From an uncultured Spirochaetales bacterium (GTDB lineage: Bacteria; Spirochaetota; Spirochaetia; Sphaerochaetales; Sphaerochaetaceae), in NCBI GenBank assembly GCA_949297785.1, contig CASFTW010000018.1:1-35779 (forward strand): 35,779 nt of DNA. Direction: 5' to 3'. The notes under the pieces were generated by a model. That model searched no databases. It was not told where the DNA came from and saw only the letters and a program-made list of their open reading frames with translations. Of this stretch, positions 20,894-32,312 are shown piece after piece; positions within the stretch are counted from its first letter, which is position 1; the number at the start of each line of letters is the position of its first letter. A program made the translations under genes and the position numbers.

Positions 20894-22087
20894 ATGAAGA
20901 AAATACAGGAGTTAAGGAACAAGAAATCCAGGCTGTGTATCGGCCTCATGAGCGGCACTTCTCTTGACGGTATAGATGCCGTTATGGTCAGAATCACCGG
21001 TCATGGCATACAGACTGAAATCAATGAGGAAAAGTTCAAAACATATCCATACCCTTCAAAAGTAAGACAAAGACTTTTGGAAATAGTTGAAAACAATACA
21101 TTATGCATTGAAGAAGTCTGCAAAATGAACTTTTTATTAGGCAATCTGTTTGCCGATGCGGCACTGAAACTTATCAATGAGTGTGGATATACACCAGCAG
21201 ATATAGATCTTATAGGAAGTCACGGTCAGACATTATGGCATGCTCCCGTAAAAGAAAACTATCTGGGATTCGACATAAGCTCAACTCTGCAACTTGGAGA
21301 AGGCGCAGTAATTGCGGAAAAAACAAAATCACTCACGATAAGTGATTTCAGAGTACGTGACGTTGCGGCAGGAGGCCAGGGTGCGCCTCTCGTTCCCTAT
21401 ACGGAATATCTGCTGTATGGAGGGAAAGAACATAATGTATGTCTCCTAAACCTTGGAGGAATAGCCAATATAACAATCCTTGAAAAGGATGCACCACTCA
21501 GCAAGCTTATTGCGTTTGATACAGGTCCTGCAAATATGCTCATTGATAAAGCAGTTTCAATTCTGACAGGCGGAATACATACATATGACAAAGACGGGGA
21601 AATGGCTTCTGCAGGTAAATTCAGTGCAGATCTTTTCAGCTTCATATGTGAAAATGACAATTACACATTCTCACCTCCTCCGAAAACAACAGGCAGAGAA
21701 AAATACAGTGCTTCTTATGCCAGCAAAATCCTTAACTATGCAAAATGGCATGCAATAAGTGATAATGATGTTATAAGAACACTGAGTGAATATACAGCCT
21801 GGACTGTCGCCTATTCCATAGAACATTACAGCCCTGTTAAAATCGATACTCTGATAGTCAATGGCGGAGGCGCTTCCAATCCTGCAATCATGGCTGCATT
21901 AAAAGAGAAATGCAGGGGATGCACAGTCATGACAGGCTGGCAGGCTGGTATAAATCCAGATGCAAAAGAGGCAACTGCATTTGCAATACTTGCAAACGAA
22001 GCTCTGTTCGAATCGGAAAACAATGCACTGGGGGCAACAGGTGCGGAACATCAGGTTGTAATGGGAAAATTCAATTTCGGCTGTTGA
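20894..22087 (+). CDS. anmK: Anhydro-N-acetylmuramic acid kinase
   Basis: A 397-residue AnmK. It hydrolytically opens the 1,6-anhydro ring and phosphorylates anhydroMurNAc to MurNAc-6-phosphate in the cytoplasm, acting on the sugar released from lytic-transglycosylase products. Signatures are GLMSGTSLDGIDAV (17-30), GSHGQT, QGAPLVP, LLNLGGIANI, AFDTGPANMLID and PPKTTGRE, all standard for the family. It has no ribosome-binding site and a -10 element six bases before ATG. Its 3' end overlaps the convergent hydrolase gene by 17 bases. Its product is the substrate of MurQ, encoded within the same locus, so the two should act in series. Confidence 0.96.
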   Translation: MKKIQELRNKKSRLCIGLMSGTSLDGIDAVMVRITGHGIQTEINEEKFKTYPYPSKVRQRLLEIVENNTLCIEEVCKMNFLLGNLFADAALKLINECGYTPADIDLIGSHGQTLWHAPVKENYLGFDISSTLQLGEGAVIAEKTKSLTISDFRVRDVAAGGQGAPLVPYTEYLLYGGKEHNVCLLNLGGIANITILEKDAPLSKLIAFDTGPANMLIDKAVSILTGGIHTYDKDGEMASAGKFSADLFSFICENDNYTFSPPPKTTGREKYSASYASKILNYAKWHAISDNDVIRTLSEYTAWTVAYSIEHYSPVKIDTLIVNGGGASNPAIMAALKEKCRGCTVMTGWQAGINPDAKEATAFAILANEALFESENNALGATGAEHQVVMGKFNFGC

Positions 22088-22776: not shown

Positions 22777-23649
22777 TTATCCTTTGACTGAGCCAACCAT
22801 CACGCCTTTGACGAAATATTTCTGGAGGAACGGATATACCATTATAATCGGAAGTGTTGAAACCAGAATTACGGCACACTTAATAGACATTGAAAGAGAT
22901 GCAGTATCAGAAGAAGTTCCGCTGGAGCCAGCAATCTGAGTGGTACCATTTACTATATTTCTCAGATAAAGCATTACCGGGTACTGACTGCTCTTGAGAT
23001 ATATAAGAGAATTAAACCAGTCATTCCAAAAGAAAACGGCAGTATACAAACTGATTGTAGCGATTCCTGCACCTGAAAGAGGGAGTACAATCTTCAGGAG
23101 AACACCGGTATATGATAATCCGTCTATAATAGCCGCCTCCTCAATATCATTTGGAATAGATTTGAAAAAATTGATGAGAAGGATCAGGTTGAACTGGTTA
23201 ATAGCAAAAGGAATCAATATTGCAAATCTGGTATTTACCATATGAAGGGAACTGATCAGCAGATAGTTCGGGATCATTCCTCCGGAAAAAAACATACTGA
23301 ATATTACAAACTTCATTACAATCTTCTGCCCTTTGAGGAATGTTTTTGAAAGTGGATAGGCAAAAAGAGTCATCATAATAAGCGAAATAAGCGTACCGGC
23401 AATAGTGTAAAATATAGTGTTACCATATGCCCTGAAAAAATTAGGATAAGCGAATATCTGCTCAAATGCCTCAAGGCTAAATCCTACAGGGTGAATAAAA
23501 ACCTCACCATTTACAACAGCAACCGGATCCGATAATGAAACAGAAATGATATACAGAAATGGCACTAGACATACTATCAGAACCAACAGCATGAAAAGAT
23601 AGATCACTGTTTTGTAAATTATATTTCCAAGTGTCTTGTATTCTCTCAT
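22777..23649 (-). CDS. ABC sugar transporter permease, LplC/YtcP type
   Basis: A 290-residue inner-membrane permease with about six helices. The EAA loop that contacts the ATPase is visible as EEAAIIDGLSYTGVLLKIVLP near residue 190. The sequence FSGGMIPNYLLISSL and the C-terminal KYFVKGVMVGSVKG are typical of the LplC/YtcP branch of carbohydrate ABC permeases (CUT1). With the preceding permease and the binding protein it would form an importer. No ATPase gene accompanies them, which is normal for this branch because a shared MsmX-like ATPase is encoded elsewhere. It lies 11 bases after its partner permease. Confidence 0.93.
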   Translation of the reverse strand: MREYKTLGNIIYKTVIYLFMLLVLIVCLVPFLYIISVSLSDPVAVVNGEVFIHPVGFSLEAFEQIFAYPNFFRAYGNTIFYTIAGTLISLIMMTLFAYPLSKTFLKGQKIVMKFVIFSMFFSGGMIPNYLLISSLHMVNTRFAILIPFAINQFNLILLINFFKSIPNDIEEAAIIDGLSYTGVLLKIVLPLSGAGIATISLYTAVFFWNDWFNSLIYLKSSQYPVMLYLRNIVNGTTQIAGSSGTSSDTASLSMSIKCAVILVSTLPIIMVYPFLQKYFVKGVMVGSVKG

Positions 23650-23660
23650 CTATGGCCTCC

Positions 23661-24608
23661 TCAGTAAATGCTTTCACCTGTCAGACGCTTGGACAGATAA
23701 TTTGAACTTGAAACGAGAATCACCCCAATGATACCAGTGAACAATCCTATTGCCGTTGCATAAGAGTAATTCTGGTTTGCAAGTCCTGTACGATAAATCA
23801 AAGTATCAAGAATATCAGATACTCCACTGTTTGCAGGTGTATACATCAGGAGCACTTTCTCATATCCAAGAGACAGAAGGCGTCCCACATTCATAATAAG
23901 CATTATCATGATTGTCGGCATAATTGAGGGAATTGTTACATACCATATCTGCTGGAAATGCCCCGCACCGTCTATTACCGCGGCTTCATACATATCCTGT
24001 GGAATTGATGTTATTGCCGCCAGATATATAATTGCTGTCCAGCCTGTGAACTGCCATGTGTCAAGCAGAATATATATGACACGGAAATACTTCGGATCAT
24101 TCATAAAATAAATCGGTTCCATTCCAAGGACATCTTTAATGAATTTATTCACGATCCCGGAAGAAGGTGACAATAATTCACCTACAATTGCAATAACAAC
24201 GACAGTTGACACAAAACGAGGCATATAGGACACAGTCTGGATTGCTTTCTTATATCCTACTGCATTTATTTCATTTAAAAGAACTGCAAAAATAATCGGT
24301 ATAGGAAAATTGATGACCAGATTCAGAAGTGCAAGAACAAGCGTGTTCTTAAACGCAGACCAGAATGCAGGGTCTTTGAAAAAGCGTTCAAAATAAAGGA
24401 ATCCGACCCACTCGGTCCCCCATGCACTGCGACCGGGACGATAGCGGCGGAAAGCAAGTATATTTCCAAACATAGGAGCATATTTGAAAATAACGAAATA
24501 TATGACAGGTACCAGCATCATCAAATACAGATGCCAGTATTTCCCGAGATATTTTTTCAATGGTGTTTTATTTGTTTCAAGGAGCTTGTCCGTCTCTTTT
24601 TTTCTCAT
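23661..24608 (-). CDS. ABC sugar transporter permease, LplB/YteP type
   Basis: A 315-residue permease of the LplB/YteP group with a cytoplasmic N-terminus and about six helices. Characteristic segments are FKYAPMFGNILAF, SYMPRFVSTVVV and the EAA loop YEAAVIDGAGHFQQIWYVTIP. It ends with the family's usual LSKRLTGESIY. I take the ATG at 24608; a TTG one codon earlier also reads in frame. AAGGAGG lies upstream. The gene follows the binding-protein gene after about 120 bases that contain a terminator-like hairpin and a second inverted repeat, so its expression is probably lower than that of the binding protein. Confidence 0.93.
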   Translation of the reverse strand: MRKKETDKLLETNKTPLKKYLGKYWHLYLMMLVPVIYFVIFKYAPMFGNILAFRRYRPGRSAWGTEWVGFLYFERFFKDPAFWSAFKNTLVLALLNLVINFPIPIIFAVLLNEINAVGYKKAIQTVSYMPRFVSTVVVIAIVGELLSPSSGIVNKFIKDVLGMEPIYFMNDPKYFRVIYILLDTWQFTGWTAIIYLAAITSIPQDMYEAAVIDGAGHFQQIWYVTIPSIMPTIMIMLIMNVGRLLSLGYEKVLLMYTPANSGVSDILDTLIYRTGLANQNYSYATAIGLFTGIIGVILVSSSNYLSKRLTGESIY

Positions 24609-24638
24609 CAAATACTGCCCTCCTTATATTTCGTACCC

Positions 24639-24674
24639 ATTTCCTTTAGGAAACATGTGTTTCTTATAGGAAAT
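24639..24674 (-). repeat. Imperfect inverted repeat in the permease leader
   Basis: Arms of 16 bases (ATTTCCTTTAGGAAAC and its partner, 14 of 16 paired) around a 4-base loop ATGT. It sits between the binding-protein terminator and the permease ribosome-binding site. It could be an operator, or a stem-loop that stabilises the 5' end of a processed permease mRNA. Confidence 0.6.
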
Positions 24675-24685
24675 GAATAAGAAGA

Positions 24686-24718
24686 AAACGAAAAAGGAGT
24701 GCCGTTTTCCGGCACTCC
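24686..24718 (-). terminator. Attenuating terminator after the binding-protein gene
   Basis: A perfect 9-base stem GGAGTGCCG / CGGCACTCC with a 5-base loop, followed on the minus strand by TTTTTCGTTTTC. It lies about 12 bases after the binding-protein stop and in front of the permease genes. This is a common arrangement giving more binding protein than permease. Confidence 0.88.
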
Positions 24719-24729
24719 CCGGATTTCAT

Positions 24730-26268
24730 TTAAAGATTTGCATTATACAGCTCAAGCATTTGATCGATGCCGAGATTTTTCATTTCAGCCACATATGCAT
24801 CCCAGTCTGTTTCTATGGACTTTGCGCCAGTGAGGAATGCATCGTTCCATCTTTCCCATGTGTCTGCAAGAGGAGTCATAAGAGAATTGACGGTTTCAGC
24901 ATCAAGATCATTGAAGCTCGGTGTCGGAGGAGTATTCTGAATAACATCTCCCATTGCTTCCACCTGTGCATTGATTTCGCTGTAACGCTCATCGTACTTT
25001 GTCATTTCTCTCTTATTGACCCATACCATCTGTGTTACATCTGAGCCGCAGCCATATTCCTGCTGCATTGCTTTGTAAACACCTCTTTCATCGTTCTGAA
25101 GTTCTTCCTTATAGACAACCTCACCGTCAACGATATCATACGTAACACCCTCTACACCGAGACACCAGATTTCAGCGGCTTCTTCCGAGAAGAAGATTTC
25201 ATCAATTTTCCTGACAATCTGCTCAAAATTCTTGCTTTCTGCTGTCTTTGCAGGGAAGATAATACCGTTTGCTGTCTTTGTCTTAGGCTGGCTATGTGCA
25301 CCGGCAGGACCTTCAAGAGCAGGATACATATCAAGGTCAAAACCCTCGATGGAAGATGCATTCTCAATTCCGCCAAGCTGATCATAATATGCCCATGTTG
25401 CCATTGACATTCCTGTAGCCATCTTGTTGGTGAATCTTGTATCATCAATCGGATCTGCCATTTCAGGATCAAGAAGACCTTCAGCATAGAGTTTATGCAT
25501 GTATGTGATATATGTTTTATACTCTTCGGAAATTGCACCTGCGAAGTATTCTTCATTTTCATAATCCCATGAGAGTACATATGAACCACTGGAACTGTTC
25601 TTGCCGAGAGAAATTCCAAAAGACGGCATTGTGAAACGGTAAAGGACTCTAGGTCCGACAAGAATTGTCAATGGATATGAATCCGGATTATGTTCTTTGA
25701 AAACTTTGAGGACTTCATAGAATTCATCAAATGTCGTAGGTACTTCAAGTCCGTATTCTTCAAGCAGATCCTTTCTGAGAATAAGACCGCCATCGTAGAA
25801 AGGAACATCAAAAAGCCCGGGGAGGCTGTATCTCTTACCGTCCGACAGGTTAAGCGCCTCCACTTCATCTTCAAGACCAAATTCTTCTACCCTTGCATTA
25901 AAATTAGGTGTCCATTCCGAATAATCGGAAATAGGAACTATTGCACCATTCAGGGCAAGAGAGGCATTCTCACCTGTAATCGACTGATACAGAATCACAT
26001 CAGGCGCATTATTATAAGTATTCAATGCAAGTGACACCTTTGTCTGATAATCAGCAATCGGAATGATCTCAAACTCAAGATCCACATTGAACCTTTCCTC
26101 AATCGTTTTAACTGTAAGCCAGTCATCTCTGAAAGGCAGTGTGGCATTATCTGAATAATAGAGAGAAATCTTAAGCGGACCATCTCCTGAAGTACTTTCA
26201 GACGAACCACCAGCAAACAATGACAGTGCAACTGTCAACACCAGTAAAACTGAAAATAGTTTTTTCAT
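24730..26268 (-). CDS. Extracellular solute-binding protein, LplA/YtcQ type
   Basis: A 512-residue family 1 (carbohydrate) solute-binding protein that captures the substrate for the two following permeases. The signal peptide MKKLFSVLLVLTVALSLFAGG is followed by a Ser/Gly linker. The position where a lipobox cysteine is expected is empty, so it should be cleaved by type I peptidase and remain soluble in the periplasm, or be retained by its signal sequence. The mature region starts LKISLYYSDNATLPF, and large LplA-like proteins of this kind usually bind oligosaccharides. An AAGGAG site precedes the ATG, and the gene follows murQ by 18 bases. The ligand is inferred to be a MurNAc/GlcNAc-containing sugar from context only. 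Confidence 0.92.
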   Translation of the reverse strand: MKKLFSVLLVLTVALSLFAGGSSESTSGDGPLKISLYYSDNATLPFRDDWLTVKTIEERFNVDLEFEIIPIADYQTKVSLALNTYNNAPDVILYQSITGENASLALNGAIVPISDYSEWTPNFNARVEEFGLEDEVEALNLSDGKRYSLPGLFDVPFYDGGLILRKDLLEEYGLEVPTTFDEFYEVLKVFKEHNPDSYPLTILVGPRVLYRFTMPSFGISLGKNSSSGSYVLSWDYENEEYFAGAISEEYKTYITYMHKLYAEGLLDPEMADPIDDTRFTNKMATGMSMATWAYYDQLGGIENASSIEGFDLDMYPALEGPAGAHSQPKTKTANGIIFPAKTAESKNFEQIVRKIDEIFFSEEAAEIWCLGVEGVTYDIVDGEVVYKEELQNDERGVYKAMQQEYGCGSDVTQMVWVNKREMTKYDERYSEINAQVEAMGDVIQNTPPTPSFNDLDAETVNSLMTPLADTWERWNDAFLTGAKSIETDWDAYVAEMKNLGIDQMLELYNANL

Positions 26269-26286: not shown

Positions 26287-27204
26287 TTATCTGAATTCTT
26301 CACTGAGTCTAAGTTTTTCCTGTGAAAGGAAAATATTTCCTATTGTTTTATATTTTAGTAAAAGCTCCCGTGCATGCTCCTTTTCAAACCCGGTTGCTGC
26401 CATCACAATTGCAAGACGTGTATCATTCCCGCTTGCTCTGAACACATCCTCTGCTTCTTTCCTGCTGCACCCTGTGATAAGTTTGATCATATTTATCGAA
26501 CGGATAACAAGCTTCTCATTCAGAGGAAGAACATCAACCATGAGATTGTTATATACCTTACCCAGCTTTATCATGCAGGCGGTTGTTATCATATTAAGTG
26601 TCATTTTCTGAGCTGTACCGGACTTCATACGCGTAGATCCGGTAATGATCTCAGCTCCCACCGGAAGGTAAATTCTGTACCGGCGATCGATGACATCAAA
26701 AACTTCGGTCTCTGGATTTGAAGAGATAGCAGCTGTAAACGCATTAAGGGATGAAGCATATTTAAGTGCCTCTACAACAAATCTGGCTCCCCCGTTTGCC
26801 GTTATGCCGACAAGAGCGTCACAGGAAGAGAAACGGCGTCTTTTCATTTCTGCCACAGCTTCTTCTCCATGATCTTCTGCTCCTTCCACAGACGTCGTGA
26901 GCGCTTTGTTTCCTCCGGCTATTATTCCCTGTACCATATCATAAGGAACTCCGAATGTCGGATGGCACTCAGAAGCATCCAGAACACCAAGACGGCCTGA
27001 AGTTCCAGCACCTATATAAAAGAGTCTGCCTCCCGAGGCAAGTACCTCAGTCACCCTATCGACAGTCGCAGCTATCTCAGGCAGAGCATGTTCCACGGCA
27101 AAAGCTACTTTCTTATCTTCCTCGTTTATAATATGGAGGATTTCAATCGTACTCTTTGTGTCAATGCCGACAGAATTCGGATTTCTCTCTTCTGTAACTC
27201 TCAT
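26287..27204 (-). CDS. murQ: N-acetylmuramic acid 6-phosphate etherase
   Basis: A 305-residue SIS-domain enzyme that cleaves the lactyl ether of MurNAc-6-phosphate, giving GlcNAc-6-phosphate and D-lactate in the cytoplasm. The phosphosugar motif FYIGAGTSGRLG is at 62-73. The two catalytic glutamates known from E. coli MurQ (31 residues apart there) correspond to Glu79 (DASECHPT) and Glu110 (EGAEDH), also 31 apart. The C-terminal segment includes STRMKSGTAQKMTLNMI. Two modes of expression appear possible: read-through from nagZ and GNAT using GGAGG at 27216-27220, and its own promoter whose -10 ends six bases before the ATG. It is the point where both kinase products converge. Confidence 0.97.
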   Translation of the reverse strand: MRVTEERNPNSVGIDTKSTIEILHIINEEDKKVAFAVEHALPEIAATVDRVTEVLASGGRLFYIGAGTSGRLGVLDASECHPTFGVPYDMVQGIIAGGNKALTTSVEGAEDHGEEAVAEMKRRRFSSCDALVGITANGGARFVVEALKYASSLNAFTAAISSNPETEVFDVIDRRYRIYLPVGAEIITGSTRMKSGTAQKMTLNMITTACMIKLGKVYNNLMVDVLPLNEKLVIRSINMIKLITGCSRKEAEDVFRASGNDTRLAIVMAATGFEKEHARELLLKYKTIGNIFLSQEKLRLSEEFR

Positions 27205-27210
27205 GAATAT

Positions 27211-27239
27211 ATTATCCTCCAGTTATTTCTGAATGTCAA
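27211..27239 (-). promoter_or_regulatory. Internal murQ promoter, predicted leaderless
   Basis: On the minus strand: TTGACA (27234-27239), a 17-base spacer, GATAAT (27211-27216), then exactly six bases to the murQ ATG. This near-consensus promoter would start transcription at the ATG. A GGAGG (27216-27220) lies inside the spacer and touches the -10, so it could serve only longer read-through transcripts. Confidence 0.7.
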
Positions 27240-27266
27240 ATTTTTTCATGAATTTTAAAATTACAA

Positions 27267-27281
27267 TGAAAAAAATTTTCA
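27267..27281. promoter_or_regulatory. Candidate MurR operator upstream of murQ
   Basis: The palindrome TGAAAAAAATTTTCA lies 28 bases upstream of the murQ -35 and touches the end of the GNAT gene. Extended arms AATGAAAA / TTTTCATT (27265-27283) are perfect. It matches 13 of 15 bases of the palindrome between the regulator and kinase genes. Confidence 0.6.
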
Positions 27282-27755
27282 TTTATCAGGCCGAAACATT
27301 CTTCCGTATATTCCAGGAGTAGAATTTTCGATAACTTCCGCATTAACGGTTTTCTGATAGAACTCCACAGGACCCACCGAACCTATAACAGCATAAGCAT
27401 ACCCTTCCTGAGCAAGAGCATGCAGACATGCCAGAAGCAGGACTTTTCCTATTCCCCGTTTCTGATATGATTCGTGAACTTTCATTGGTCCGAAAAAATC
27501 AGGTGCTGTTGCATTATAACATGCATATCCGGCAATGCGGTTACCATCAAGTGCTACAAAAATTGATGGAATAGAATGAGAAAAGGCACACTCGGCTTCA
27601 CCTGCTGCAAATAGTGATGAATTTTCTTTTATCCACTGTACGATGTGTTCTCTGTTCGGAGGAAGCGCCCGGATAACCCTTATACCGTCTGCCTCAAGTT
27701 TTTTCATATCTTCTTCCATCGGTGGAAGATCATACAATCTGACCAGCATATCCAT
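27279..27755 (-). CDS. GNAT-family acetyltransferase
   Basis: A 158-residue GCN5-related N-acetyltransferase. The acetyl-CoA-binding motif is HESYQKRGIGKVLLL near residue 105, preceded by the beta-strand IAGYACYNA and followed by the VGPVEFYQK segment. The acceptor is unknown. It sits between nagZ (3-base gap) and murQ, and in Bacillus subtilis a GNAT gene (ybbJ) likewise adjoins murQ, so association with muramic acid metabolism may be real. N-acetylation of a glucosamine or muramic acid is a possible role, not shown by the sequence. GTGGAGG precedes the ATG at 27755. Confidence 0.85.
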   Translation of the reverse strand: MDMLVRLYDLPPMEEDMKKLEADGIRVIRALPPNREHIVQWIKENSSLFAAGEAECAFSHSIPSIFVALDGNRIAGYACYNATAPDFFGPMKVHESYQKRGIGKVLLLACLHALAQEGYAYAVIGSVGPVEFYQKTVNAEVIENSTPGIYGRMFRPDK

Positions 27756-27758
27756 ACT

Positions 27759-29297
27759 TTACACCTCCACAGGCAACCTGCCTTTAATGCTGCCTTTATT
27801 CTGAATAAGAAGAGCAATCTCATCAAAAATACGGCTTGAATATTCGTAACAGGCAAAAGACGAAGAAACCATTTCCCTCACATCAAGAGAAAGGTCATAC
27901 GGATTACGCAAGGCAAACAGATTAATCTTATGCCCTGCCCCTGAAAGAGCTTTTACCATCTTTATCTGCCCTTTCTGCAAATGTCCGTTATAAGAACCAA
28001 AAGTTATTGCCCCAGCTCCTTTTAATTTTTCTACCAGAGTCTGTATCTCTTTTTCGTCCGGATCCGCACTTATGATTTCACCTTTACAAGATGGGAATTT
28101 TGCTAGCATATATGAAACGAAATCCACACCACCCAGCTGATCCGAAATATTCGACGTGATATAAGCCTTCGGTGCGATAAAAGCCATATCCGCATCTGCA
28201 AGCTGAACATTGCCACTGACATGAGATATACTCTCACGGGCCAGAATATCATACTCTTTCTTGAGTTCATGCATATTACTATCCATTACAAATGGCTGCG
28301 GTGAAGATAGCTTTCCCTTCAAGACCTCAAGCCTGGACAGAGAAGTCTCAAGACATTCCTCAATGTCATCATATTGCTCAACAACCTTTGCAATTGTTTC
28401 ACAAGCAATATCTGCATGATGAGAAATAAAAACAATGTCCACTCCCGCTTTAAGAGCTCTGATTGAAGCATCCTGTGTTCCATAGAAATCTTTTATCGCA
28501 TTCATTTCCATGCAGTCCGAAATTATAATGCCTTTAAAACCCAACTGTTCTCTCAGAATTGACGTTAGGATTGTCCGGCTCATAGTGCAAGGTATTTTTT
28601 CTCTCTCAATCTGGGGAAAGAGAATATGACTGGTCATAATAGCGGGAACACCTTCTTTTACAGCATCCAGAAATGGAACAAGTTGTCCTCTGATAAGCTC
28701 ATCAAGGCTTTTGTTTATAACGGGAAGAGCCAAGTGGGAATCCACATGGGTATCGCCATGCCCGGGAAAATGCTTTGGAGAAAAAAGTATACCACTCTTC
28801 TTGTACCCTCTTATGCTTGCACATCCAAACTTTGATACAATCTCTTTTCTATCTGAAAAACTTCTAACTCCTATCACAGGATTTTTTTTACTTTCATTCA
28901 CATCAAGACAGGGTACAAGATTGAAATTACAGCCCAAAGCCTTCAGTAACTTTCCATTCTTGTATGAGGTCTCTTCTATAATCTTTTCATCTCCGAGAGC
29001 AGACAATGCCATTTGAGAAGGCAACACAATGCTATTCATAGGAAGCCGTGATACCATTCCCCCTTCCTGATCTATGGTTATGAAAGGATGATATCCCGTC
29101 TCGGAAAAAATCAGATGATCAACATCCATGCACAGCTTGTTAAGACCTTCAAGTGAAGTAACATTATCTGAAAAAATAATGAAATTGCCAATTTTGTATT
29201 TTTTCACGCATTCAACAAATTCGGGAGTAAGCTTGTCTCCTCTGAATCCGGATACAAAATGCTGTCCTGCCTTTATGAGTTTTTCTTCCAGTTGCAT
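27759..29297 (-). CDS. nagZ: Glycoside hydrolase family 3 beta-N-acetylglucosaminidase
   Basis: A 512-residue GH3 enzyme that removes non-reducing GlcNAc from cell-wall fragments such as GlcNAc-MurNAc or GlcNAc-anhydroMurNAc. The NagZ-specific His/Asp loop KHFPGHGDTHVDSH is at 175-188, the nucleophile is Asp261 (IISDCMEMN), and ITIDQEGG sits near residue 75. It is longer than the single-domain NagZ of E. coli (about 340) and carries a C-terminal domain (about 365-512), as in Bacillus NagZ (YbbD). Unlike the Bacillus enzyme it lacks a signal peptide, so it should act in the cytoplasm. GGAGG precedes the ATG. It lies 15 bases after namZ. Confidence 0.93.
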   Translation of the reverse strand: MQLEEKLIKAGQHFVSGFRGDKLTPEFVECVKKYKIGNFIIFSDNVTSLEGLNKLCMDVDHLIFSETGYHPFITIDQEGGMVSRLPMNSIVLPSQMALSALGDEKIIEETSYKNGKLLKALGCNFNLVPCLDVNESKKNPVIGVRSFSDRKEIVSKFGCASIRGYKKSGILFSPKHFPGHGDTHVDSHLALPVINKSLDELIRGQLVPFLDAVKEGVPAIMTSHILFPQIEREKIPCTMSRTILTSILREQLGFKGIIISDCMEMNAIKDFYGTQDASIRALKAGVDIVFISHHADIACETIAKVVEQYDDIEECLETSLSRLEVLKGKLSSPQPFVMDSNMHELKKEYDILARESISHVSGNVQLADADMAFIAPKAYITSNISDQLGGVDFVSYMLAKFPSCKGEIISADPDEKEIQTLVEKLKGAGAITFGSYNGHLQKGQIKMVKALSGAGHKINLFALRNPYDLSLDVREMVSSSFACYEYSSRIFDEIALLIQNKGSIKGRLPVEV

Positions 29298-29312
29298 CTT
29301 TATTTTCCTCCT

Positions 29313-30440
29313 TCAGTACAAGTAATATCTGCTGCTTTGTTCTAAAAACATCTCTTCATCCCTTTTGAAAAGAGGTTCGATATCATGTCCTGCGATTATC
29401 CGCTCTATCATATTTTTTCCAAGCAGTCTGTCAATGAAAAGACAAGAGTCTTTTGTCCGTACAAGCTGAATATCTGCGCAGTTTTTAAAACACAAATATA
29501 TCAGAGTCAGAGTAAGGGAAAGAGGATCCGCGATAGAATAATCATCTACTGAAATACGAAGACAACTGCAGTCTTCCGACTTCCATTTACCGCAAGAAGG
29601 AACTACACTGACAGTATCTATGCAAAATCCTTCGCTAGATTTGAGACAGGACAATTCCTGTTTTATTTTTTCTGCATCAAGCCAAGGCGCACCAATAATA
29701 CGGAAAGGAGAAGATGTTCCACGACCTTCACTTAGATTTGTTCCTTCAATCAGGCATGTTCCTGAGTAAATGAAGGCTGTCTCAAAATCTTTAACAGACG
29801 GAGATGTAGGATAAAACTTACGGTTAGTGTCTATTTGAAGTTCTCCTCTCCAGCCCAATATCTTGATTCCATCAATTTCCACATCAATATTGAATTCATC
29901 TCTATACCAGAGAGCCAGCTCAAAAGGCGTCATTCCATAACGTATCGGAATACATGCCGGACCTACAAAAGACAAACTGTCTTTGCCAAGTATATTTCCT
30001 CTTATCTTTCTGCCAAGAGGATTCATCCTGTCAAGAATAAAAAGAGGAATACGGCAGGCCGCACATTCTCTCATCAGACACAGAAGAGAAGAAATGTAAG
30101 TATAAAACCTAAGGCCGAGATCTTGAATATCATAGACAACACAATCAACTGCTTCCTTTACATTTCCGGGAATAGCGACAGAGCCTTCATCCGAATACAG
30201 AGATATTACTTTAATTCCATCTATAAGACATTCTTCCCTCACATTTTCACCGGCACCGGCTTTCATCGAAAATCCATGCTCAAATGACAAAAGACAGTGA
30301 ATATTGCATATGTCTTTCAATACAACTACAGAAGATCTGCCATCAGCATCAACAGATGCAAAATTAGCAGCGAGGGCAATCGTTTTTCCGTTAAGCTTCT
30401 CTTTTAAACGATTAACTTGATCTATTGCATAAAACAGCAT
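29313..30440 (-). CDS. namZ: Exo-beta-N-acetylmuramidase NamZ (GH171, formerly DUF1343)
   Basis: A 375-residue DUF1343 protein. The Bacillus subtilis member (YbbC/NamZ) is an exo-N-acetylmuramidase that releases MurNAc from the non-reducing end of MurNAc-GlcNAc, and it founded GH171. Conserved segments here are SFEHGFSMKAGAGE near 50-65, YDIQDLGLRFYTYISSL, LDRMNPLGR, ETAFIYSGTCLIEGTNLSEGRGTSSPF and IGAPW. There is no signal peptide, in contrast to secreted Bacillus NamZ, which implies hydrolysis after import. I start at 30440 (MLFYAID) with AAGGAG six bases upstream, two bases after the regulator's stop. Together with NagZ it could strip cell-wall saccharides alternately from the non-reducing end. 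Confidence 0.9.
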   Translation of the reverse strand: MLFYAIDQVNRLKEKLNGKTIALAANFASVDADGRSSVVVLKDICNIHCLLSFEHGFSMKAGAGENVREECLIDGIKVISLYSDEGSVAIPGNVKEAVDCVVYDIQDLGLRFYTYISSLLCLMRECAACRIPLFILDRMNPLGRKIRGNILGKDSLSFVGPACIPIRYGMTPFELALWYRDEFNIDVEIDGIKILGWRGELQIDTNRKFYPTSPSVKDFETAFIYSGTCLIEGTNLSEGRGTSSPFRIIGAPWLDAEKIKQELSCLKSSEGFCIDTVSVVPSCGKWKSEDCSCLRISVDDYSIADPLSLTLTLIYLCFKNCADIQLVRTKDSCLFIDRLLGKNMIERIIAGHDIEPLFKRDEEMFLEQSSRYYLY

Positions 30441-30442
30441 AA

Positions 30443-31285
30443 CTACTCCTTTTTCACAGCATCCCATGTAGCCACGATTCTATCCAGAGAGCCCTGCTTT
30501 GCAAGAATTATCGAATAATAAATTATATCAACAAGCATAAGCTGCTCTATACGTGAAACAGAAGCGCCTTCCCTCAAAACTGATTCACGGGAAGAAACTC
30601 TGAGAACGATATCGGCAATTGATGCAAGATGATTTTTACCTGTTTTTGTAATTGCAACCGTTTTGATGCCGCGATTCTTAGCATTTTCAGCAAGCTTGCG
30701 GATAAAAGCTGTGTTTCCTGAATAAGAGAACAGTATGAGCAGATCTTTTTCGCTCATTGATACAAGCTGAACAAACTGAAAATCTTCGCTTTGACCAAAA
30801 TGTGAAAAGATACCTATTCTTGCAAGTTTCTGTTGCAAATCCTGCGCAGCAAGAGAACTAGCTCCAATTCCAGCAATGAGAATATTACGGCTGGAAAGCA
30901 CAGCTTCTACAACCTTCTGAACATCATCCTTATCCACCAGCTCTCTAAGGCACTCAATTGACTGTTTAGTAGAACTTATAACATGAGAAACCACACCATC
31001 CACGGATCTTGCATTTGCAACATCACTATCATTACATTCTTCCGTCTTTACGTTATCCTTTGTATATTTTGCAAGTTCCAGCCGCAGCTCAGGATAACCA
31101 GACAGACCTGCTTTTTTACAGAACCTGACAATTGATGCTGTTGATACAGAAATTGCATGTGCAAAATCTGTCACTGAATGACTGATAACAAAATCAGTAT
31201 CATCAATTATCGCCTTGACTATCATCTTTTCAGCTTTTGTATATTCACTTCTAAGTGACAGAGCATTTATCAGATTTTCATTCAT
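30443..31285 (-). CDS. RpiR-family transcriptional regulator, MurR-like
   Basis: A 280-residue regulator with an N-terminal RpiR helix-turn-helix domain (about 1-77, including VSTASIVRFCKKAGLSGYPELRLEL) and a C-terminal SIS domain (about 120-260, ILIAGIGASSLAAQDLQQKL and LFSYSGNTAFI) that binds a phosphosugar. In E. coli the homologue MurR represses murQP and responds to MurNAc-6-phosphate; the same ligand is inferred here from neighbours. It is the first gene of the minus-strand operon and divergent from the kinase. I chose the ATG at 31285 because family N-termini fit. An upstream ATG at 31303 adds six residues, and neither has a ribosome-binding site. The promoter predicts leaderless translation from 31285. 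Confidence 0.88.
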   Translation of the reverse strand: MNENLINALSLRSEYTKAEKMIVKAIIDDTDFVISHSVTDFAHAISVSTASIVRFCKKAGLSGYPELRLELAKYTKDNVKTEECNDSDVANARSVDGVVSHVISSTKQSIECLRELVDKDDVQKVVEAVLSSRNILIAGIGASSLAAQDLQQKLARIGIFSHFGQSEDFQFVQLVSMSEKDLLILFSYSGNTAFIRKLAENAKNRGIKTVAITKTGKNHLASIADIVLRVSSRESVLREGASVSRIEQLMLVDIIYYSIILAKQGSLDRIVATWDAVKKE

Positions 31286-31291
31286 AATCAC

Positions 31292-31320
31292 ATGGTAAAC
31301 CATAAAAAAAGAACTGTCAT
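31292..31320 (-). promoter_or_regulatory. Promoter of the murR-like operon, predicted leaderless
   Basis: On the minus strand: ATGACA (31315-31320, five of six to TTGACA), a 17-base spacer, TACCAT (31292-31297, a weaker -10), then exactly six bases to the ATG at 31285. No Shine-Dalgarno sequence precedes that ATG. Confidence 0.55.
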
Positions 31321-31342
31321 GAAAATTTTTTACATTTTTTTA

Positions 31343-31355
31343 GAAAATAATTTTC
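31343..31355. promoter_or_regulatory. Candidate MurR operator between regulator and kinase
   Basis: A perfect 13-base palindrome GAAAATAATTTTC in the 91-base divergent intergenic region, overlapping the expected -35 region of the kinase promoter. A binder here should block the kinase promoter directly. The wider 15-mer AGAAAATAATTTTCA matches the murQ-upstream palindrome at 13 positions. Confidence 0.65.
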
Positions 31356-31361
31356 ACACTA

Positions 31362-31370
31362 TGCTATAAT
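31362..31370 (+). promoter_or_regulatory. Extended -10 promoter at the kinase start, predicted leaderless
   Basis: TGCTATAAT, a consensus extended -10, is followed by exactly six bases (GGAGCC) and the ATG at 31377. GGAG lies only two bases from the ATG, too close to work as a ribosome-binding site and upstream of the expected transcript start. Confidence 0.72.
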
Positions 31371-31376
31371 GGAGCC

Positions 31377-32312
31377 ATGAACACAGCAATTGGAATAGAT
31401 GGAGGCGGAACATCTACAAGAACCGTACTTAGCATAGATGGATATATCAAGGCATCCTGCAGAACAGGAGCTTCAAACATTTATGCGGCAGGATTCGAAA
31501 ATGCAGTTAAAGCAATCATTGAAGGAATTGATAGCTGCATAAGGGAAGCAGGACTTAACGAGAAAACACCAATGTCAATTCACATCGGCGGAGCCGGCAT
31601 GGGTAGTATTCAAAACAAAACAAAAATAAAAGACCTTCTTTCTTCCTTCTACCCTTCATCAATTATAAATATAAGCGACGATATAGCAGTTCTCACTCCA
31701 GAACTTGGAGGCAGCCGAAGCGGTATAATTCTTATCGCTGGGACAGGAGCAATAGCATATGGACAAAATATGTCTGGAATGTCAATTAGAAGTGGAGGTT
31801 ATGGCTGGAGACTGGATGATGAAGGTTCTTCTTTCTATATTGCAAAAGAAGCGATAAAACGGACACTGAAAAGCTGTGAGCAGATTGATCTTAAAACCTC
31901 GATTGACAAAGTCTTATGCCGTCATTACGGAATAAGTTCTATTACTGAAATAATTTATTACATCAACGATGATGAAAGAAAAAAAACTGATTATTCTTCT
32001 TTTACCCCAGAAGTCATAAAACTGGCAGAAAAAGGAGACTTGCTTGCTGAAGATATCATACGAAAAGCAGTGGATGCCCAGTTCAACCTGATCGAAAGCA
32101 TAACAAAAAGACTTTCACCGCCTTTCGACAAAACAATACTCCTTTCAGGAGGACTGCTTCTTAATGAAGAATACCTCTCTGCAAGACTTATTGAAAAACT
32201 AAATACAACATTCCCTGAATATACTGTTAAAACAGCCGATAAGGACTCAGCCGTACGAGGAGCATTGAGTATGGCAGAAGAATATTTAAAAACACAGTAT
32301 TCTCAAACATAG
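31377..32312 (+). CDS. murK: BadF/BcrA-type N-acetylhexosamine kinase, MurK-like
   Basis: A 311-residue ASKHA-fold kinase of the BadF/BcrA/BcrD/HgdA group. The phosphate-1 motif GIDGGGTSTRT is at 6-16, the phosphate-2 region IAGTGAIAYG follows near 120, and GGYGWRLDDEGSSFYI is the family's hallmark segment. The adenosine motif LLSGGLLLN lies near the C-terminus. Family members include human GlcNAc kinase and the Clostridium MurK that phosphorylates both MurNAc and GlcNAc. With murQ adjacent and no PTS, MurNAc is the most likely substrate, with GlcNAc second. It is divergent from the murR-like gene, has a predicted leaderless start, and overlaps glnN by 10 bases at its 3' end. The symbol is assigned by context. 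Confidence 0.87.
   Translation: MNTAIGIDGGGTSTRTVLSIDGYIKASCRTGASNIYAAGFENAVKAIIEGIDSCIREAGLNEKTPMSIHIGGAGMGSIQNKTKIKDLLSSFYPSSIINISDDIAVLTPELGGSRSGIILIAGTGAIAYGQNMSGMSIRSGGYGWRLDDEGSSFYIAKEAIKRTLKSCEQIDLKTSIDKVLCRHYGISSITEIIYYINDDERKKTDYSSFTPEVIKLAEKGDLLAEDIIRKAVDAQFNLIESITKRLSPPFDKTILLSGGLLLNEEYLSARLIEKLNTTFPEYTVKTADKDSAVRGALSMAEEYLKTQYSQT

Follow-up and report, generated by a model that had tools for sequence, protein, structure and literature searches.

Which protein acts on the two similar palindromes that lie upstream of murQ and between a regulator gene and a kinase gene in a spirochaete cluster for salvage of N-acetylmuramic acid (MurNAc)? The cluster belongs to contig CASFTW010000018.1 (assembly GCA_949297785.1) of an uncultured Spirochaetales bacterium of the Sphaerochaetaceae, and the whole stretch analysed, 35,779 nucleotides, is called the window here. 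An earlier note had proposed that the palindromes serve autoregulation and control of murQ by the RpiR/SIS protein encoded in the cluster. We consider it likely that they are operators of this adjoining regulator, in an autoregulated, MurR-like repression that would be released by a MurNAc-derived sugar phosphate. The proposal gains support from conservation of the sites at murQ and rpiR and from the single RpiR gene of the genome, with binding itself as the step that we infer.

Both palindromes are present (Table 1), and the count of 13 identical bases out of 15 between TGAAAAAAATTTTCA and AGAAAATAATTTTCA is correct. Two further sites had escaped the earlier note, a second palindrome in the regulator/kinase gap and a weak copy near murQ. 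We suggest that each operator is a pair of 15-base-pair (bp) sites of the form TGAAAA-N3-TTTTCA with a spacing of about 22 or 33 bp. The murQ operator would combine a strong site upstream with the weak site on the -35 box. The strong site spans -77 to -63 relative to the murQ ATG and shares bases with the TGA stop codon of the GNAT gene that lies upstream, and the right half of the weak site is fused with the -35 hexamer TTGACA. In the regulator/kinase gap, two good sites would cover or abut both divergent -35 regions: one abuts the regulator -35 hexamer, with one base in common, and the other, as had been predicted, overlaps the -35 region and spacer of the TGnTATAAT promoter of the kinase. 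The pairs are 33 bp apart at murQ (27267/27234) and 22 bp apart at the regulator and kinase (31342/31320); the operators extend over 48 bp with 18 bp between the sites and over 37 bp with 7 bp between the sites, respectively.

Palindromes might also arise by chance in AT-rich promoter DNA, given that the arms are runs of A and T and that shuffled windows give about one match at two mismatches. The window, on both strands, holds six matches with at most two mismatches against 0.99 expected, and none of 100 shuffles reaches six. In a pattern search of the whole 2.2 Mb genome (G000; 2,219,725 bases), WGAAAANNNTTTTCW in its exact form occurs at 12 places, 10 of them inside open reading frames, and the only intergenic copies are the two palindromes first described. 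This uniqueness, together with the cross-genome enrichment and the fixed spacing given below, makes chance hardly credible.

It could also be that the RpiR protein has its targets elsewhere and that the palindromes bind a different transcription factor, such as a global carbon regulator. Other AT-rich palindromes of 15 bp look similar to the site, and its versions in Firmicutes are somewhat like CcpA cre boxes. However, a global regulator would have some exact intergenic matches outside the cluster, and the genome has none. In addition, the core TGAAA-N5-TTTCA, present in the window sites and in relatives, is of the known RpiR type (PMC12713135), and the sole HTH_6 gene of the genome is the regulator gene of the cluster. 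We therefore regard a different factor as very unlikely and, since there is a single RpiR gene, take its product to be the natural binder of the palindromes. The relaxed core is found at 19 places in the genome and is intergenic only at murQ and at four others. These four are treated as chance matches because their neighbours have no link to MurNAc; they adjoin aldose-epimerase-like, MatE/aspartokinase-like (a pair), phosphate-binding-protein-like and acetate kinase genes, as named by sequence reading.

Conservation of the palindromes at orthologous genes had been set as a test, and it holds for murQ and for the regulator gene and fails for the kinase genes as a class. Upstream regions of relatives were compared by Fisher test with the window left out, a site being at least 10 of 12 arm bases; contigs labelled Sphaerochaetaceae, Sphaerochaeta and Pleomorphochaeta belong to the same family as the window. 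A site precedes murQ in 13 of 22 regions (p 3.5e-9) and rpiR in 10 of 25 (p 3.5e-6), p-values that are optimistic because the loci are related and AT-rich. The value for namZ (p 0.0095) arises because some genomes have namZ divergent from murQ. There is no upstream enrichment in the relatives for nagZ, the GNAT gene, the two permease genes, anmK or murK (p 0.29 to 0.98). After rearrangement, the motif remains with murQ or the transporter operon. In G017, for example, murQ has moved to the other strand, and a site is found both at murQ and at the transporter operon left behind. The same two placements are seen in the clusters of four named contigs (L118, L123, L125 and L155).

Several points weigh against our reading. 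The kinase genes of relatives are not enriched (p 0.91); the window kinase is covered because it has its promoter gap in common with the regulator. Some murQ-bearing relatives have no murQ site, mostly those in which murQ is an internal gene of an operon or lies far from the regulator. The loci are AT-rich, include several close relatives and are not phylogenetically independent. The weak partner at murQ could be the A-tract of an UP element. Finally, the regulator scores 78.2 bits against the NCBIfam MurR equivalog NF012026, for which the cut-off is 408, and for this reason we name it only MurR-like. Its domains are those of the RpiR architecture (PF01418, 63.4 bits, cut-off 28.3; PF01380, 74.9 bits, cut-off 25), and the closest solved chains to its SIS domain are those of E. 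coli MurR. Two MurR-type traits are also present: the regulator gene is linked to murQ with an operator motif common to both, and the two-site operator, of about 47 bp in E. coli and 48 bp at murQ here, overlaps the promoter.

The spacing of the paired sites can likewise be read from the DNA of relatives. When their murQ and transporter promoters are aligned on the strong site, the order is strong palindrome, 18-19 bp, a TGAAAA/TAAAAA half-site running into the -35 box, 17-18 bp, and the -10 box. The signal of the left half is highest at offsets 33 (mean 4.47 of 6) and 34 (mean 4.18), compared with 1.9 (permutation p 2e-4 at murQ and the solute-binding protein gene, the floor of the test). Site pairs at rpiR are mostly 21-23 or 33 bp apart (permutation p 2e-4, again the floor). 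The two-part pattern TGAAAWNNNWTTTCA-N18-19-TRAAAA has nine matches in 101 genomes, and its reversed control has none. The only match in G000 is the murQ site, four matches fall in promoters of the cluster, before murQ, the transporter genes or rpiR (G032, G017, G046 and G057), and that in G089 lies about 3.4 kb from the regulator; six of the nine are thus placed. Spacings near 22 or 33 bp would allow a tetramer to hold both sites on one face of the DNA.

We infer DNA binding, bridging by a tetramer, repression and the effector as follows. The bound regulator would block RNA polymerase at all three promoters. Repression would extend to murQ together with the importer genes, to the kinase, and to the regulator's own operon of regulator, namZ, nagZ and the GNAT gene. 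Sites on or abutting the -35 regions of the three promoters fit repression and autoregulation. Release would come from a sugar phosphate derived from MurNAc, whether imported or recycled; MurNAc-6-phosphate is the most likely one, since it is the known substrate of MurQ and by analogy with E. coli MurR. The same protein and sites might instead work in activation: the sugar phosphate would stabilise a tetramer, which from its place at the upstream site would make contact with RNA polymerase. Such a mechanism has been proposed for NanR of Streptococcus pneumoniae, an activator of the RpiR family whose site has the same core and, about 23 bp off, a degenerate half-site (PMC12713135). In many relatives the strong murQ site does precede the -35 box, and its distance hardly varies (about -89 to -93). 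However, one site at murQ and one at the kinase overlap the -35 or spacer and one at the regulator abuts the -35, which fits blockage, and the remaining RpiR regulators described to date are, according to PMC12713135, repressors. We thus find activation improbable and favour repression. The element appears to be a real, conserved RpiR-type operator of a known kind, to which two sites and a pairing rule are added here.

E. coli MurR and the murR-murQP divergon were reportedly treated by Jaeger and Mayer in 2008. The divergon is also described in PMC5061867 and PMC12713135; according to the latter, MurR is reported to bridge two sites separated by 17 bp, 47 bp overall, which overlap the promoter. 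Compared with E. coli as these papers present it, the two-site operator at murQ is alike (18 bp and 48 bp). The differences are that a gap of just 7 bp separates the two sites between regulator and kinase, that the operon headed by the regulator gene diverges from the kinase instead of murQ, and that the MurP phosphotransferase system (PTS) has its counterpart in an ATP-binding cassette (ABC) importer; the regulon would further comprise NamZ, NagZ, a separate kinase and, among relatives, AnmK. NanR has the 15-bp core too, along with a degenerate half-site some 23 bp away from its main site (PMC12713135), but NanR is a reported activator of sialic acid genes, and many partner sites here are almost complete and a distance of 33 bp occurs as well. 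The Bacillus subtilis cluster is murQ-murR-murP-amiE-nagZ-ybbC (PMC5061867). Like it, the present cluster has murQ, a MurR-like regulator, nagZ and ybbC; unlike it, with its PTS uptake and extracellular degradation, uptake here is by an ABC system and the enzymes are apparently cytoplasmic. We take ybbC of B. subtilis to be the NamZ gene.

Beyond the phylum, a homologous importer is found in Paenibacillus, Cohnella, Anaerocolumna and other Firmicutes, where it is also linked to murQ. Enrichment of TGAAA-N5-TTTCA upstream of the Firmicutes genes (Fisher test: importer, p 8.5e-8; rpiR, p 2.9e-4; murQ, p 0.87) is only a lead, because six pattern-gene combinations were tried, the loci are related and the site somewhat resembles a CcpA box. 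A perfect copy lies 52-188 bp upstream of the importer operon in six Firmicutes loci (L128, L138, L141, L142, L149 and L169), which hints at a module common to both phyla. A broader picture is tentative and, in our view, rather doubtful: a lineage-wide MurNAc regulon in which the MurR-like tetramer bridges pairs at 11-bp multiples (22 or 33 bp) over leaderless promoters, with a regulator-sites-importer module conserved across phyla and the same core at the same importer operon in Firmicutes. Our findings provide a testable operator with spacing rules for the control of peptidoglycan-sugar salvage in spirochaetes, of which no description was found in the open literature searched. They link an unassigned ABC importer, present in Firmicutes too, to MurNAc salvage, and the paired sites make the RpiR tetramer bridging proposed for E. 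coli MurR and NanR testable by a change of spacing.

Table 1. Sites, promoters and genes of the MurNAc cluster in the window
Feature	Positions	Strand	Remarks
Weak murQ partner, TGAAAAAATTTGACA	27234..27248	-	10/12; 33 bp from strong site
Strong murQ-upstream palindrome, TGAAAAAAATTTTCA	27267..27281		TGAAAA-AAA-TTTTCA; 12/12; 6/6 arm pairs match
Second regulator/kinase-gap palindrome, TGAAAATTTTTTACA	31320..31334		TGAAAA-TTT-TTTACA; 11/12; 22 bp from 31342 site
Regulator/kinase-gap palindrome, AGAAAATAATTTTCA	31342..31356		AGAAAA-TAA-TTTTCA; 11/12; 5/6 arm pairs match
murQ promoter	27211..27239	-	TTGACA-17-GATAAT; consensus scan 11/12; conserved in relatives
Regulator promoter	31292..31320	-	ATGACA-17-TACCAT; consensus scan
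Kinase promoter	31341..31370	+	TAGAAA-18-TATAAT, extended -10 (TGC); consensus scan
anmK, anhydro-MurNAc kinase	20894..22087	+	own leaderless-type promoter; no operator copy
Solute-binding protein and two ABC permeases	22777..26268	-	probable importer
murQ, MurNAc-6-phosphate etherase	26287..27204	-	above TIGR00274 equivalog cut-off
GNAT acetyltransferase	27279..27755	-
Family 3 glycoside hydrolase, NagZ-like	27759..29297	-
NamZ-type exo-beta-N-acetylmuramidase	29313..30467	-	NamZ_N + NamZ_C
RpiR-family regulator	30443..31303	-	HTH_6 + SIS; likely start 31285
BadF/BadG-type amino-sugar kinase, murK/nagK-like	31377..32312	+	above PF01869 cut-off

The regulator probably starts at 31285 rather than 31303, as the ATG at 31285 agrees with ortholog starts. 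With this start, the -10 boxes of murQ, the kinase and the regulator end exactly 6 nucleotides before the ATG (27204, 31377 and 31285), so that the three mRNAs are probably leaderless. In nearly all relatives examined, the regulator gene has the same spacing of 6-7 nucleotides. Among 654 candidate ATGs from 21 loci, TANNNT peaks at 6 nucleotides (35, 5.4%, against a background of about 1.4%), and thus leaderless genes appear to be common in this lineage. An earlier survey found them in 6 of 18 spirochaete genomes, at 3.9% of genes on average (PMC3160421). A -10-like hexamer also ends exactly 6 nucleotides before the ATG of anmK (20894).

The kinase, divergent from the regulator gene, scores 94.6 of 370 bits against the N-acetylglucosamine kinase model. 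The solute-binding protein and permease genes probably encode an importer of muropeptide sugars (or MurNAc) and are presumably co-transcribed with murQ. They have no ATPase gene of their own nearby, and the binding protein is 63-79% identical across Sphaerochaetaceae. Since the starts of the NamZ and NagZ-like enzymes have no obvious signal peptide by sequence reading, the ABC system probably imports disaccharides that would be split in the cytoplasm.

The gene anmK lies apart from the cluster, has a promoter of its own and comes after a terminator-like hairpin. No matching palindrome upstream of it had been seen, and the best candidate indeed has 8 of 12 bases (p 0.70); we reject anmK as a target of the operator because there is no enrichment and its promoter lies behind the hairpin. 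In four relatives (L098, L101, L103 and L104), anmK belongs to the regulator operon and directly precedes the operator of murQ or of the transporter genes. Being outside the cluster, behind a hairpin and with its own promoter, the window anmK has apparently dropped out of the regulon.

We also considered auxotrophy for MurNAc and reject it, as MurB is present. The genome has a single penicillin-binding-protein transpeptidase domain (PF00905; G000:C1:274964-275875), as do most family members, and most other families of the class have 3-5.
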